DNA of 64,000 bases from Gammaproteobacteria bacterium (GTDB lineage: Bacteria > Gemmatimonadota > Gemmatimonadetes > Longimicrobiales > Gaopeijiaceae), in assembly GCA_028819075.1 (NCBI GenBank), contig JAPPMM010000024.1, positions 1 to 64,000 on the forward strand, written 5' to 3'. The notes beneath the pieces are model-generated. The model had not been told where the DNA came from. It did no database searches and worked only from the letters and a program-made list of their open reading frames with translations. This document shows positions 58,317 to 63,274 of the stretch, piece by piece; the stretch's first letter is position 1, and each line of letters begins with the position of its first letter. The translations under genes were made by a program, and so were the position numbers.

Positions 58317-58445
58317 CAGAAGCGCGCAGCGCACCGGCGCCCGGTATCGGAGGGCCCGCCGTGCGGATAGGTTATGGTGGCCCCGGTTCCGACGCAGGGA
58401 GCGGGTATGCCCGATTGCAGCGATCATCCATGGAGGGAACCGAGA

Positions 58446-59321
58446 ATGAGACGTAGCATGTCCACCCTGTTGTCGATCCTTGTCATCGCCTGCGGCGGCC
58501 GCGCCGAGAACGGTGCGCGCGCGGTGATCCAGAACAAGGGATCGGATACGCTGATCACCGTCGCCCAGGCCTGGGCGGAAGCGTACAGCGCAGTCGACGC
58601 CGAAGTCGCCGTGGCGGTCTCGGGTGGCGGCTCCGGCACCGGTATCTCGGCGATGATCAACGGCACGGTGGACATCGCCAACTCGAGCCGCAAGATGACC
58701 TCGCGGGAGATCGAGGCGGCTCGCGCGAACGGCAACGATCCCGTAGAGCACCTTGTCGGCCACGACGCGCTGGCCGTGTACGTCCACCGCGACAATCCGG
58801 TGGGCCGGCTTACCCTGGACCAGCTGGCGGGCATCTACGGAGAGAACGGCACGATCGAGCGCTGGAGCCAGCTCGACGTTCAGGTGCCGGGGTGCGCATC
58901 GGACGAGATCGTCCGCGTCAGCCGACAGAACAACTCCGGCACCTTCGCGTATTTCCGCGAGGCGGTTCTCGACAACGAGGACTTCAAGCTCGGCTCCCAC
59001 GACATGCACGGCTCGAAGGACGTGGTGCACCTGGTGGCCCAGACGCCGTGCTCGATCGGCTACAGCGGAATGGCCTACGCAACCCCCGAGGTCACGATGC
59101 CCTGCGTCATGGGCAGCGCCGGCGAGTCGTGCGTCGCCCCCTCGATCGAGACGGCGCTCGACGGCAGCTACCCGATCGCCCGGCCCCTGCTCATGTACAC
59201 CTCCGGTAGTCCGGCGGGCGCGGTCAAGACCTATCTCGACTGGGTGCTGGGCGATGCCGGGCAGTGCATCATGCTGGAGCTGGGCTACACCCCGGCGATG
59301 CCCGCCGAGTGCGTACAGTAG
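58446..59321 (+). CDS. pstS: phosphate ABC transporter substrate-binding protein
   Basis: 291 residues. A lipobox in LVIACGG. NKGSDTLITVAQAWAEAYS and VSGGGSGTGISAMINGTVDIANSSR form the phosphate-binding cleft. SRQNNSGTFAYFREAV and YTSGSPAGAVKTYLDWVL complete the PstS fold. It captures periplasmic phosphate for PstCA-B1B2 encoded downstream. Four Cys in the middle and C-terminal parts may form disulfides. No clear Pho box is visible upstream. Confidence 0.9.
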   Translation: MRRSMSTLLSILVIACGGRAENGARAVIQNKGSDTLITVAQAWAEAYSAVDAEVAVAVSGGGSGTGISAMINGTVDIANSSRKMTSREIEAARANGNDPVEHLVGHDALAVYVHRDNPVGRLTLDQLAGIYGENGTIERWSQLDVQVPGCASDEIVRVSRQNNSGTFAYFREAVLDNEDFKLGSHDMHGSKDVVHLVAQTPCSIGYSGMAYATPEVTMPCVMGSAGESCVAPSIETALDGSYPIARPLLMYTSGSPAGAVKTYLDWVLGDAGQCIMLELGYTPAMPAECVQ

Positions 59322-59351
59322 CCCGGGATAAGGACGCCTGATCGGCCCTCA

Positions 59352-60293
59352 ATGAATCCGCAGGCGCTCGCCCGCTCGCGCGACTTCGACCACCGCGGCC
59401 GCGCCTGGTACGCAGACCGCGCGGTGACGGTGTTCGTCTTCATCGGCGGCACTTCGGCGATCCTCTTCATCGGCGGGATCTTCGCCTTCATCGCGCGCGA
59501 AGGCCTCGGGTTCGTGTTCACCGAGTTCGACGCGGGCGAGTTTTTCGGCTCCATCGCCTGGCGGCCCACCTCGGCGGTGGATGCCACCTACGGCGCACTG
59601 GCGCTCATCGTGGGGACGGCGAGCATTACGGGGCTGGCGATGGTGGTGTCGATCCCCTTCTCGCTGGCGGCCGCCGTGTTCATCGGTGAATTCGCGCGCG
59701 GCCGGGTGCGCGAAACGCTCAAGGTGCTCGTCGAGCTGCTCGCGGCCATCCCCTCCGTCGTGTGGGGTTTCATCGGCTTCAGCATCATGAACTCGCTGAT
59801 CATCGACTTCTTCGACGTTCCCATCGGGCTGAACGTCCTGAACGCGGGGATCATCCTGGGGCTGATGGCGGCCCCCATCATGACCACCATCGCCGAAGAC
59901 GCCCTCAAGGCGGTCCCGGACGGCTATCGGGAAGCAGCCGAAGCGCTGGGCGCCACCCGCTGGCAAGTGATTCGCAAGGTGGTGATTCCCGCGGCGAAGA
60001 ACGGCCTGGTGGCGGCGGTGCTGCTGGGCGTGGGACGAGGGTTCGGCGAGACCATGGTCGTGCTCATGGCCAGCGGCCACTCCATCAACCTCCCGGACAG
60101 CGTGTTCGACTCCGTGCGCGCGCTCACCGCCACCATTGCGGCGGAACTGGGCGAGACGGCCGTCGGCTCCGATCACTTCCGGGCGCTCTTCACGCTGGGC
60201 ATCCTGCTCTTCCTGGTGACCTTCGCGATCAACCTGGCCGCCGATACCATCATGCGCGGGATCCGCAGGAAGGGGGAGCGGGGGCGCCCATGA
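59352..60293 (+). CDS. pstC: phosphate ABC transporter permease PstC
   Basis: 313 residues with about six membrane helices. The N-terminal part (VTVFVFIGGTSAILFIGGIF) and FTEFDAGEFFGSIAWRPTSA are followed by the permease signature EAAEALGATRWQVIRKVVIPAAKNG, the EAA loop contacting the ATPase. GEFARGRVRETLKVLVELLAAIPSVVWG matches PstC. It overlaps pstA by four bases (ATGA). Confidence 0.93.
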   Translation: MNPQALARSRDFDHRGRAWYADRAVTVFVFIGGTSAILFIGGIFAFIAREGLGFVFTEFDAGEFFGSIAWRPTSAVDATYGALALIVGTASITGLAMVVSIPFSLAAAVFIGEFARGRVRETLKVLVELLAAIPSVVWGFIGFSIMNSLIIDFFDVPIGLNVLNAGIILGLMAAPIMTTIAEDALKAVPDGYREAAEALGATRWQVIRKVVIPAAKNGLVAAVLLGVGRGFGETMVVLMASGHSINLPDSVFDSVRALTATIAAELGETAVGSDHFRALFTLGILLFLVTFAINLAADTIMRGIRRKGERGRP

Positions 60294-61180
60294 CCGGTAC
60301 GGCGGCCCCGTTGTTCGCGGGCACCTCGCTGAACGCGCGCGACCGGAAGGTCGAGTGGCTGGTGCGCGTTCTGCTCGGACTGATGACCGCGCTGCTCATC
60401 CTGCCGGTCGTGATCATCATGGCACTGCTGGTGGTAGAGGGCGGCCCCGTCATCTCCTGGGAGTTTCTTACCACGCCGCCGGTGGACGGCATGACCGCCG
60501 GGGGCATTCTACCCGCGCTGGTGGGGACGGTGTGGCTGGTGGTCGTGGCGCTGATCGCGTCCGTGCCCGTGGGGGTGGCGGCCGCCGTCTACCTGAGCGA
60601 ATACGCCCCCGACAACTGGCTCACGCGCGCCATAAACCTCGCGATCATCAACCTGGCGGGGGTGCCGTCGATCGTGCACGCCCTGTTCGGGGTGGGCGCC
60701 TTCGTGCTCTTCTTCCGCTTCGGCACGAGCATTCTGGCGGCCAGCCTCACCCTGGCGGTGATGACGCTCCCGGTCGTCATCGTGTCCACCCGCGAGTCGC
60801 TGCAGGCGGTGCCGCGAGCCTTCCGGGAAGCCTGCTGGAACATGGGCGCAACCCGCTGGCAGACCATTCGCCGCATCGTGCTGCCCAACGCCCTCAGCGG
60901 CATCCTCACGGGCATCATCCTGGAGGTGTCGCGCACCTCGGGAGAGACCGCTCCCATCATGTTCACCGGCGCGGCTTTCTTCCTTCCCTTCCTGCCCCAG
61001 GGCGTCCTGGACCAGACCATGGCCATGTCGCTGCACCTGTTCGTCATCGCCACTCAGGTACCGGACGCGCCGGAAGCGCTGCCGTTCGGCGTGGCGCTTG
61101 TGCTGATTTCCATGGTGCTGGCAATGAACGCGCTCTCCATCGCCTTTCGCGTGTACGTGCGCGGGAGAAAGAAATGGTAG
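60290..61180 (+). CDS. pstA: phosphate ABC transporter permease PstA
   Basis: 296 residues with about six helices. SVPVGVAAAVYLSEYAPDNW, LAGVPSIVHALFGVGAFVLF and the EAA loop EACWNMGATRWQTIRRIVLPNALSG are diagnostic. SRTSGETAPIMFTGAAFFLP follows. It pairs with PstC in the membrane channel. The stop overlaps the pstB1 start by seven bases. Confidence 0.93.
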   Translation: MTGTAAPLFAGTSLNARDRKVEWLVRVLLGLMTALLILPVVIIMALLVVEGGPVISWEFLTTPPVDGMTAGGILPALVGTVWLVVVALIASVPVGVAAAVYLSEYAPDNWLTRAINLAIINLAGVPSIVHALFGVGAFVLFFRFGTSILAASLTLAVMTLPVVIVSTRESLQAVPRAFREACWNMGATRWQTIRRIVLPNALSGILTGIILEVSRTSGETAPIMFTGAAFFLPFLPQGVLDQTMAMSLHLFVIATQVPDAPEALPFGVALVLISMVLAMNALSIAFRVYVRGRKKW

Positions 61181-61977
61181 CGGGCGGGGCGCCCAACGGC
61201 GGCGGCGCCTCGGCCGAGGCGCTTTCCGCGAAGGTGGTCGTGCAGAACCTCACGATCCGCTACGGGAACCATGTGGCGCTGCGAGGGCTGGATCTCTCCA
61301 TTCGCCGGAACGAGATCCTGGGGGTCATCGGCCCCGCGGGCTCGGGCAAGACCTCGTTCCTGCGCGCCCTCAACCGCATGGACGAGTTCATCCCCGGGAT
61401 GGAGGTGGAGGGCCGTATCACCTTCGACGGCCGCGATATCCGACGCGTGCGCAATGTGTACGCGCTGCGCAGCCGCATCGGCGTGGTCTTTCCGCTCCCG
61501 GTGGGGCTCCCGCTCACCGTCTACGAGAACGTGGCCCTGGCTCCGCGCCTGCGGGGCGTGCGCAAAGGCAGCGAGCTCGACGAGATCGTCGAACGGTGCC
61601 TCCGGCGCGCCGCGCTCTGGGAAGAGGTCAGGGACCGGCTTGACTCGCTCGGAAGCCTGCTCTCCGGAGGCCAGCAGCAGCGCCTCACCATCGCGCGCGC
61701 GCTTTCGCAGGAACCCGATCTCCTGCTGCTGGACGAGTTCTCGATCGCCGTGGATCCGGTCACCACGATGCGCATAGAGGATGTCCTCAAGGACTTGAAG
61801 AACGAGATGTCGATCGTGCTGGTGACCAATCTGGTGCAGCAGGCGAGGCGGCTGGCGGACCGGACCGCGTTCTTCCTGACCGGCGAGCACGTCGAAACCA
61901 GCGACACGGCGCGCATCTTCAGCGGCATCGTCAAGGATCCGCGCACCCACGACTACATCGAGGGACGCTTTGGCTGA
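61174..61977 (+). CDS. pstB: phosphate ABC transporter ATPase, degenerate (PstB1)
   Basis: 267 residues. Walker A GPAGSGKT (53-60), signature LSGGQ (163-167) and Walker B LLLLDE are intact. The Q-loop Gln is replaced by Pro107 (VVFPLPVGLP where PstB has VFQ-P-P), and the H-loop His by Asn219 (LVTNLVQQ where PstB has VTHNMQQ). Its own nucleotide site should therefore hydrolyse poorly, while its LSGGQ can serve the partner site. Overlaps pstA and pstB2 on both sides. Confidence 0.88.
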   Translation: MVAGGAPNGGGASAEALSAKVVVQNLTIRYGNHVALRGLDLSIRRNEILGVIGPAGSGKTSFLRALNRMDEFIPGMEVEGRITFDGRDIRRVRNVYALRSRIGVVFPLPVGLPLTVYENVALAPRLRGVRKGSELDEIVERCLRRAALWEEVRDRLDSLGSLLSGGQQQRLTIARALSQEPDLLLLDEFSIAVDPVTTMRIEDVLKDLKNEMSIVLVTNLVQQARRLADRTAFFLTGEHVETSDTARIFSGIVKDPRTHDYIEGRFG

Positions 61978-62758
61978 GCCGGCTGCCGCTCCCGCACCTG
62001 CCGCGATCGCGACCCGGGGCCTCAACCTCTGGTATGGAGACTTCCAGGCCCTCTTCGATGTCAACCTGCACGTGAAGCAGGGCATCATCACCTCCCTCAT
62101 CGGTCCCTCGGGCTGCGGCAAATCCACCCTGCTCCGGAGCTGCAACCGCATCAACGAGCGGCTCGGCTACGTCCGAACCACGGGAAGCATCGAGATTCTG
62201 GGCCAGGACATCTACGCGCCGGAGGTAGAGCTGGTGCAGGTGCGCAAGCAGGTGGGGATGGTGTTTCAGCGTCCCAATCCCCTGCCGCTCTCCATCCGCG
62301 ACAACGTGAGCTTCGGCCACCGGCTGCACGCCCGCGGCCACCGCGTCTCGCGCGCGCGCAGGCAGGAACTGGTCGAGGATGCCCTGCGCAAGGTGCTGCT
62401 CTGGGACTCGGTCAAGGATCGGCTCGACACCCTGGCCACCGAGCTGTCGCTCGAGGAGCAGCAGAAGCTCTGCATCGCGCGGTTGCTCCCGGTGAAGCCC
62501 GCCGTGCTGCTCATGGACGAACCGTGCTCGGCGCTCGATCCCAAGGGCACGGCGGCCGTGGAGGAGCTCATCTGGGAGCTGAGGGGCGAGTTCACGATCC
62601 TGATCGTGACCCACAACATGGCCCAGGCGCGGCGAGCCAGCGAGGAGACCGTGTTCATGCTGATCGGCAAGTTGATCGAGCACGGCCGTACGGAGGACGT
62701 CTTCCTGAACCCGCAGCACCGCCAGACCGCCGATTACATCGAGGGGCGCTACGGCTGA
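61970..62758 (+). CDS. pstB: phosphate ABC transporter ATPase with altered signature (PstB2)
   Basis: 262 residues from a TTG. Walker A GPSGCGKST (45-53), Q-loop Gln100 in VFQRPNP, Walker B LMDEPCSALDP (Asp183, Glu184) and H-loop His215 in VTHNM are canonical. The signature motif is LSLEE (159-163) in place of LSGGQ. It should bind and hydrolyse ATP at its own site only if the partner supplies LSGGQ, which PstB1 does. PstB1 and PstB2 thus look like the two halves of one heterodimer. Confidence 0.88.
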   Translation: MAEPAAAPAPAAIATRGLNLWYGDFQALFDVNLHVKQGIITSLIGPSGCGKSTLLRSCNRINERLGYVRTTGSIEILGQDIYAPEVELVQVRKQVGMVFQRPNPLPLSIRDNVSFGHRLHARGHRVSRARRQELVEDALRKVLLWDSVKDRLDTLATELSLEEQQKLCIARLLPVKPAVLLMDEPCSALDPKGTAAVEELIWELRGEFTILIVTHNMAQARRASEETVFMLIGKLIEHGRTEDVFLNPQHRQTADYIEGRYG

Positions 62759-62798: not shown

Positions 62799-62872
<74 letters not shown>

Positions 62873-62905
62873 GTGTCGCGGCCAATGCCGGCTGCTCCCC
62901 CGCGG

Positions 62906-63274
62906 CGGAGCGCACGGAATAAGCCGAGTTCTGTCCCCGCCCGAAGACGGGGGAGGATCATTTATCTGGGACCGGCATCGCTGCCGGCCTCGTGCGGCCT
63001 ACCCGGGACTCGGGTGGAGCGGGCAACTCCTCGTCCTCTATTCGGCCTTGCTCCGGGTGGGGTTTGCCATGCGGCCCCTGTTGCCAGCGGCCCGGTGCGC
63101 CCTTACCGCACCCTTTCACCCTTGCCTGTGCCCCGGGGGGCCATCGGCGGTCTGCTCTCTGCGGCACTTTCCGTCGGCTCACGCCGCCCGGGCGTTACCC
63201 GGCACCCTGCCCTGTGGAGCTCGGACTTTCCTCCAGCGGGCTAACCCGCCAGCGATCCTCACTCGTGCGCTCCG
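62906..63274 (-). ncRNA. rnpB: RNase P RNA (class A)
   Basis: Read on the minus strand, the 5' CGGAGCGCACGA pairs with the 3' TCCGTGCGCTCCG as helix P1. GAGGAAAGTCCGAGCTCCACAGGGCAG (in 20-base pieces: GAGGAAAGTCCG and CAGGGCAGG) and the terminal ACAGAACTCGGCTTATTCC are universal RNase P RNA blocks. GCAAGGGTGAAAGGGTGCGG matches the P10-P11 region. It processes tRNA 5' ends. It sits 33 bases from the tRNA-Arg gene, upstream on the same strand. Confidence 0.95.

Follow-up and report, generated by a model that had tools for sequence, protein, structure and literature searches.

Why would a phosphate importer carry two different PstB ATPases, each of which has lost conserved motifs that the other retains? 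The question arises from a pst operon in the window (the whole stretch of DNA that we analyzed, 64,000 nucleotides long), whose first-pass annotation read the two ATPases as an asymmetric heterodimer with a single competent ATP site. Each ATP site of an ABC transporter is formed by the Walker A/B motifs, Q-loop and H-loop of one NBD and the signature of the other NBD (PMC7756269).

The pst operon and the motifs of its two ATPases

The operon is compact (58446-62758) and has the gene order pstS, pstC, pstA, pstB1, pstB2:

58446..59321, + strand: pstS, phosphate-binding protein of the PstS_2 type (NCBIfam TIGR02136, 220 bits, cut-off 206.6; Pfam PBP_like_2)
59352..60293, + strand: pstC, permease (NCBIfam TIGR02138, 260 bits, cut-off about 196.5)
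60290..61180, + strand: pstA, permease (NCBIfam TIGR00974, 254 bits, cut-off about 193.5)
61174..61977, + strand: pstB1, ATPase, ATG start (TIGR00972, 280 bits, under the cut-off of 343.2)
61970..62758, + strand: pstB2, ATPase, TTG start (TIGR00972, about 319 bits, under the cut-off of 343.2)

PstS (for which an alternative upstream start at 58374 is possible), PstC and PstA all score above the curated phosphate-transporter cut-offs of NCBIfam, as expected of a Pst importer. Neither PstB1 nor PstB2 reaches the equivalog cut-off of TIGR00972, yet no other family comes close for either protein; the same cut-off was exceeded in 13 of 14 control genomes. The low scores of both ATPases therefore mark the operon as a variant of Pst rather than a plain member, and automatic annotation, which scores both proteins on the ordinary PstB model, likely hides the distinction. 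PstB1 and PstB2 are the sole PstB-type ATPases of the window genome (the next best ABC match scores 143 bits versus 280 and about 319), as they are in many other carriers.

The reading frames of pstA and pstB1 overlap by 7 bases and those of pstB1 and pstB2 by 8 bases. These overlaps suggest that translation is coupled and that the two ATPases are likely made in similar (1:1) amounts. No phoU follows pstB2 in this operon. Directly downstream, on the opposite strand, are two RNA genes:

62799-62872, - strand: tRNA-Arg (CCG)
62903-63273, - strand: class A RNase P RNA

We read the ATPase motifs by aligning PstB1, PstB2 and canonical PstB proteins and checked them against the solved E. coli PstB. 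In order, the motifs are GPAGSGKTS / VVFPLPVGLP / LSGGQQQR / LLLDEFSIAVDP / VTNLVQQA in PstB1 and GPSGCGKST / MVFQRPNPLP / LSLEEQQK / LLMDEPCSALDP / VTHNMAQA in PstB2. The key residues, with their conservation among the distinct relatives listed in our surveys, are as follows:

61492..61494, + strand: PstB1 Pro107, replacing the Q-loop Gln (119/119 distinct PstB1)
61660..61674, + strand: PstB1 LSGGQ signature, residues 163-167, intact (119/119 distinct PstB1)
61732..61737, + strand: PstB1 Walker B Asp187-Glu188, kept (LDEF in 119/119 distinct PstB1)
61828..61830, + strand: PstB1 Asn219, replacing the H-loop His (119/119 distinct PstB1)
62267..62269, + strand: PstB2 Gln100 of the Q-loop, kept (110/110 distinct PstB2)
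62444..62458, + strand: PstB2 LSLEE, residues 159-163, replacing LSGGQ (LSGGQ in 0/110, L-x-L-(E/A) in 110/110)
62612..62614, + strand: PstB2 His215 of the H-loop, kept (109/110 distinct PstB2, the remaining one truncated)

The alignment agrees with the first-pass annotation, which had placed the pair at 61174-62758 and described a PstB1 with Walker A/B and LSGGQ whose Q-loop Gln is replaced by Pro and whose H-loop His is replaced by Asn, and a PstB2 with Walker A/B, Gln and His next to LSLEE for LSGGQ. It adds the presence of the catalytic Glu in the Walker B motif of PstB1 (LLLDEF, with Asp187 and Glu188 both intact), which follows an intact Walker A (GPAGSGKTS). The D-loop of PstB1 is IAVD in place of SALD. 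PstB2 has the Walker A sequence GPSGCGKST and a combined Walker B and D-loop sequence of LLMDEPCSALD. The two proteins are 38% identical to each other, and PstB1 and PstB2 share 42% and 49% identity, respectively, with E. coli PstB, whose chains in 9k3x and 9k3s are the closest solved relatives by sequence and predicted fold. Single-chain models gave a PstB fold for both proteins (TMt 0.91-0.96 to 9k3s/9k3x); in the AlphaFold model of PstB1, confidence fell below 50, the N-terminus aside, only at Q-loop residues 109-111.

Occurrence and conservation of the pair

Close relatives of the window genome contain two kinds of loci. Besides the window's, 12 genomes in the close-relative survey carry the PstB2 type, and the PstB1 type adjoins it wherever the contig continues. 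A lone canonical PstB is present in 17 loci of the window's family and order. Named genomes, when scanned, yielded at least 80 PstB1-type loci. The record titles of PstB1-type loci span at least about ten phyla, with the reservation that MAG names can be wrong, and include, among the matches listed, Gemmatimonadota, Planctomycetota, Acidobacteriota, Gamma-, Beta- and Deltaproteobacteria, Nitrospirales, Poribacteria, Verrucomicrobiota, Bacteroidota/Rhodothermales and Eisenbacteria. The paired system is present in 'Candidatus Accumulibacter', Dechloromonas, Planctomycetota, Acidobacteriota and other mostly uncultivated groups; the first two are lineages known for polyphosphate accumulation in wastewater phosphorus removal. 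Among plasmid-borne loci of named isolates we found only two distant PstB proteins (47-48% identical), from Monoglobus and Subdoligranulum.

The motif losses are invariant across this range. In the first survey, PstB1 had Pro, Asn and LSGGQ in 86/86 loci with both genes on the contig (among the matches listed), and PstB2 of the same 86 pairs had always lost the signature and kept Gln, with His kept in 85 and cut off in 1. Loci with one gene of the pair end at or near the end of a contig. Together with two further sets, the first survey yielded 119 distinct PstB1 and 110 distinct PstB2 proteins. All 119 PstB1 among the matches listed combine Pro, Asn and LSGGQ, and the PstB2 proteins all have Gln and none has LSGGQ; the one without His is truncated and lacks the H-loop region. 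The degenerate PstB2 signature is conserved in a form of its own, L-x-L-(E/A)-x-x-Q-K, and the substituted residues are conserved to the same degree as the catalytic ones. Each motif pattern holds without variation in over 100 distinct relatives, which is far beyond chance. The same invariance rules out a single-genome accident or a sequencing error. Because the profile that identified PstB1 relatives derives from PstB1 itself, it could have missed a divergent relative with canonical motifs, although the scores left a wide gap (at least 370 versus at most 276).

The two genes also travel together. PstB1 and PstB2 profiles were searched independently over one set of 249 genomes from the window's phylum, and PstB1 was found in 37 genomes and PstB2 in the identical 37, always adjacent. 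A 299-genome sample of the Dechloromonas phylum had PstB1 in 24 genomes and PstB2 in 23 of those; in the 24th, the contig ends within PstB2, whose start can be seen. The order is pstC-pstA-pstB1-pstB2, with the ATPase genes next to each other. No singleton or intermediate was found in the surveyed genomes, in which one-gene cases occur only at contig ends; this rules out an independent origin of the substitutions. The first-pass annotation had predicted that the substitutions would co-occur and had reasoned that their independent appearance would undermine a heterodimer. What we found is strict co-occurrence, in both phyla and in all 86 pairs, which supports a heterodimer indirectly. The raw odds of the genome overlap (<1e-30) are descriptive only, because the genomes are related and the genes linked. 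A PstB above the canonical cut-off was absent from 34 of 36 paired genomes. No natural PstB1-PstB2 fusion was present among the surveyed loci. The sole case of a pstB2 located away from pstB1 (L168, genome G419) has pstB2 on another contig and a frame for a PP2C-like phosphatase after pstB1.

In the tree, PstB1 and PstB2 are each monophyletic (supports 0.98 and 1.0), and the two clades contain the same organisms. Their divergence is correlated (r = 0.89, versus 0.75-0.85 with other operon proteins), which partly reflects shared ancestry. For pstB1 and pstB2 alike, dN/dS values within the genus are about 0.12, which indicates purifying selection and, therefore, that neither gene is decaying.

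The PstA coupling helix and an associated PhoU

The permease PstA also has a distinctive feature, in the helix that couples it to the ATPases:

60824..60859, + strand: PstA coupling helix REACWNMGATRW, with a Trp codon at 60836-60838

This Trp is present in 95/95 PstA proteins of paired operons versus 0/30 other PstA proteins, and the helix of the paired-operon PstA is mostly REACW(N/S)-GATRWQT. The PstC helix of paired operons has the more ordinary REAAEALGATRW form, as judged against a small control set (n=6). Each ATPase probably docks on its own permease, with the specialized coupling helix on PstA. One of the ATPases, most simply PstB1 with its altered Q-loop, would then be dedicated to PstA.

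Most paired operons outside the window genus carry a PhoU of ~370 residues between pstS and pstC. Its C-terminal domain is related to thioredoxin-type arsenate reductase (PDB 1y1l, E = 1e-11) and lacks the catalytic Cys. Among the 37 paired genomes of the window's phylum, 30 have a strong match to this PhoU-ArsC-like protein; unpaired genomes have no match as strong. The fusion is possibly a pseudo-enzyme for phosphate or arsenate sensing. Examples of PhoU with the arsenate-reductase/LMW-phosphatase-like domain, in addition to ~30 other loci, are:

L048:3062-4174, between pstS and pstC
L053:2948-4084, between pstS and pstC
L072:3043-4179, between pstS and pstC

A PhoU domain was absent from all six window-genus genomes checked (G000, G001, G003, G007, G008, G009) and present in all eight other genomes checked. 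An assembly gap is an unlikely cause of the absence, given that all six genomes of the genus lack the domain. One of them (G009, 98% complete) has neither the paired Pst nor PhoU, from which it follows that the whole Pst system can be lost within the genus.

A predicted asymmetric importer and its alternatives

We consider it probable that the operon encodes a type I Pst importer (PstS-PstC-PstA-PstB1-PstB2) with an obligate PstB1-PstB2 heterodimer that has one hydrolytic and one degenerate site. The lesions lie in two different NBDs and are confined to one composite site, with the Gln and His lost from PstB1 and the signature from PstB2. The competent site would combine the Walker A/B motifs, Q-loop and H-loop of PstB2 with the LSGGQ of PstB1. 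The other site would combine the LSLEE of PstB2 with the Walker A/B motifs of PstB1 and with the Pro and Asn that replace its Gln and His. A homodimer of either protein would have two defective sites. We infer the heterodimer, the activities of its sites, docking, stoichiometry and phosphate as the substrate from sequence.

The first-pass annotation had called the second site doubly degenerate. This stands for the Q- and H-loops and for the signature in trans and needs qualification for the rest, since Walker A and the catalytic Glu are both intact in PstB1; the site is thus degenerate via Q, H and the trans signature and not via loss of Glu. For the same reason, it probably still binds Mg-ATP, without hydrolyzing it at a useful rate, and its role may be that of a structural clamp, which has been suggested for the degenerate sites of exporters. 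Some hydrolysis at the PstB1 site is possible. An H-loop Asn left transport by ABCC1 near wild-type levels (reviewed in PMC7756269), so the substitution of Asn for His does not by itself have to inactivate a site. Each transport stroke would likely involve hydrolysis of one ATP, always on the same side of the complex.

Degenerate-site heterodimers, which the first-pass annotation called well known among exporters, are textbook there; examples are TM287/288, BmrCD, TAP1/2 and the ABCC family. Exporters of this class likewise pair a competent composite site with a degenerate one, in which the H-loop and the trans signature are changed (PMC7756269). However, their hallmark is the loss of the Walker B Glu at the degenerate site (PMC7544095), whereas PstB1 keeps it throughout; furthermore, the present system is an importer and has also lost the Q-loop Gln. 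The fused-NBD importers RbsA and NupO of B. subtilis also have one degenerate site (PMC11466899), but they are Type II-class sugar/nucleoside systems with two NBDs per chain and a lost Walker A Lys, rather than Pst systems with separate ATPase genes. Canonical PstSCAB of E. coli (PDB 9k3s/9k3x) shares the operon parts and the fold but has a PstB homodimer in place of two ATPases with complementary motif losses, and differs in the PstA coupling helix and in the scores of PstB against TIGR00972. The tandem PstB proteins of Firmicutes (E. faecalis PstB1/PstB2 and B. subtilis PstBA/PstBB) are likewise encoded by two adjacent pstB genes in one pst operon, and the B. subtilis pair has been modeled as a heterodimer (PMC11466899). 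Unlike the window pair, however, both E. faecalis proteins keep Walker A, Walker B, LSGGQ and the H-loop (PMC12096839). Overexpressed PstB2 alone suffices in E. faecalis, and the 2025 paper reporting this states that the relative contributions of tandem pstB paralogs had no published study (PMC12096839). The first-pass annotation knew of no asymmetric Pst importer, and our search of open-access papers found no description of one; as far as these papers go, a design familiar from exporters is apparently new for phosphate importers.

Among the alternatives, PstB1 could be a regulatory or signaling ATPase-like subunit (e.g., in PhoU-type sensing) that joins the transporter at times, leaving the work to PstB2 homodimers. 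PhoU is known to contact PstB (PMC5775613), and the special PhoU with its pseudo-arsenate-reductase domain accompanies most paired operons. Nevertheless, a PstB2 homodimer would have LSGGQ at neither site, the LSGGQ kept in every listed PstB1 is of use only in trans, and the window genus has no PhoU at all though it keeps the pair, all of which makes a signaling subunit quite unlikely. It is also rather improbable that both sites hydrolyze ATP in a functionally symmetric heterodimer like those of Firmicutes, with the substitutions simply tolerated. The Walker B Glu of both proteins and the tolerance of ABCC1 to an H-loop Asn (PMC7756269) would permit it, but the three lesions all fall on the same composite site, invariantly across phyla. 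The E. faecalis pair keeps every motif examined in the study (PMC12096839), and the ability of its PstB2, in excess, to replace PstB1 is contrary to what we expect of the present pair.

Duplicates often decay, and both proteins score under the curated PstB cut-off; pseudogenization or independent drift of a redundant copy is nonetheless refuted by the conservation of the substituted residues in at least about ten phyla and by the dN/dS values, as well as by the open frames and the lack of any other PstB in the window genome, and we give it almost no credence. An importer of the predicted design could also carry another oxyanion or discriminate between phosphate and arsenate, a reading that differs in substrate only and to which the ArsC-like domain of the associated PhoU, lacking its catalytic Cys, lends some appeal. 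It is unlikely given that PstS, PstC and PstA all exceed phosphate-transporter cut-offs and that most paired genomes have no other Pst over or near the PstB profile.

The results thus point to a real, widespread and functionally constrained Pst variant, for which the heterodimer proposed earlier is the best-supported interpretation, its biochemistry being predicted from the genes. We lean toward the broader view that such systems make up a broad class of asymmetric Pst importers. Its origin would be an ancient PstB duplication, after which catalysis fell to one obligate partner and the trans-signature to the other, and the coupling helix of PstA would have changed to match. Most members would be coupled to the dedicated PhoU with a dead arsenate-reductase-like domain, so that stoichiometry and phosphate signaling would be unlike those of E. 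coli Pst. It has long been asked whether an ABC importer needs both of its ATP sites to fire in each cycle. If the asymmetric heterodimer is correct, nature would have supplied a type I importer in which one site is disabled, for comparison with homodimeric PstB systems built on the same PstC/PstA scaffold, and hence a test free of mutagenesis artefacts.

Some loci contain further Pst-like genes. Six from Poribacteria (L105, L106, L107, L108, L109 and L113) have a second PstA-like permease ~0.7-1.1 kb past pstB2 and a third, more degenerate PstB-like protein with Arg or Pro in the Q-loop, an LSIGQ-like signature and an H-loop Asn; an ordinary PhoU follows this protein in both loci read (L105 and L109). 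Three Longimicrobiales relatives have an additional Pst-like operon (L131:3068-4825, L132:3137-4777 and L133:3747-4763) with a single divergent PstB that has LSAGQ and a variable H-loop residue, Tyr or His.
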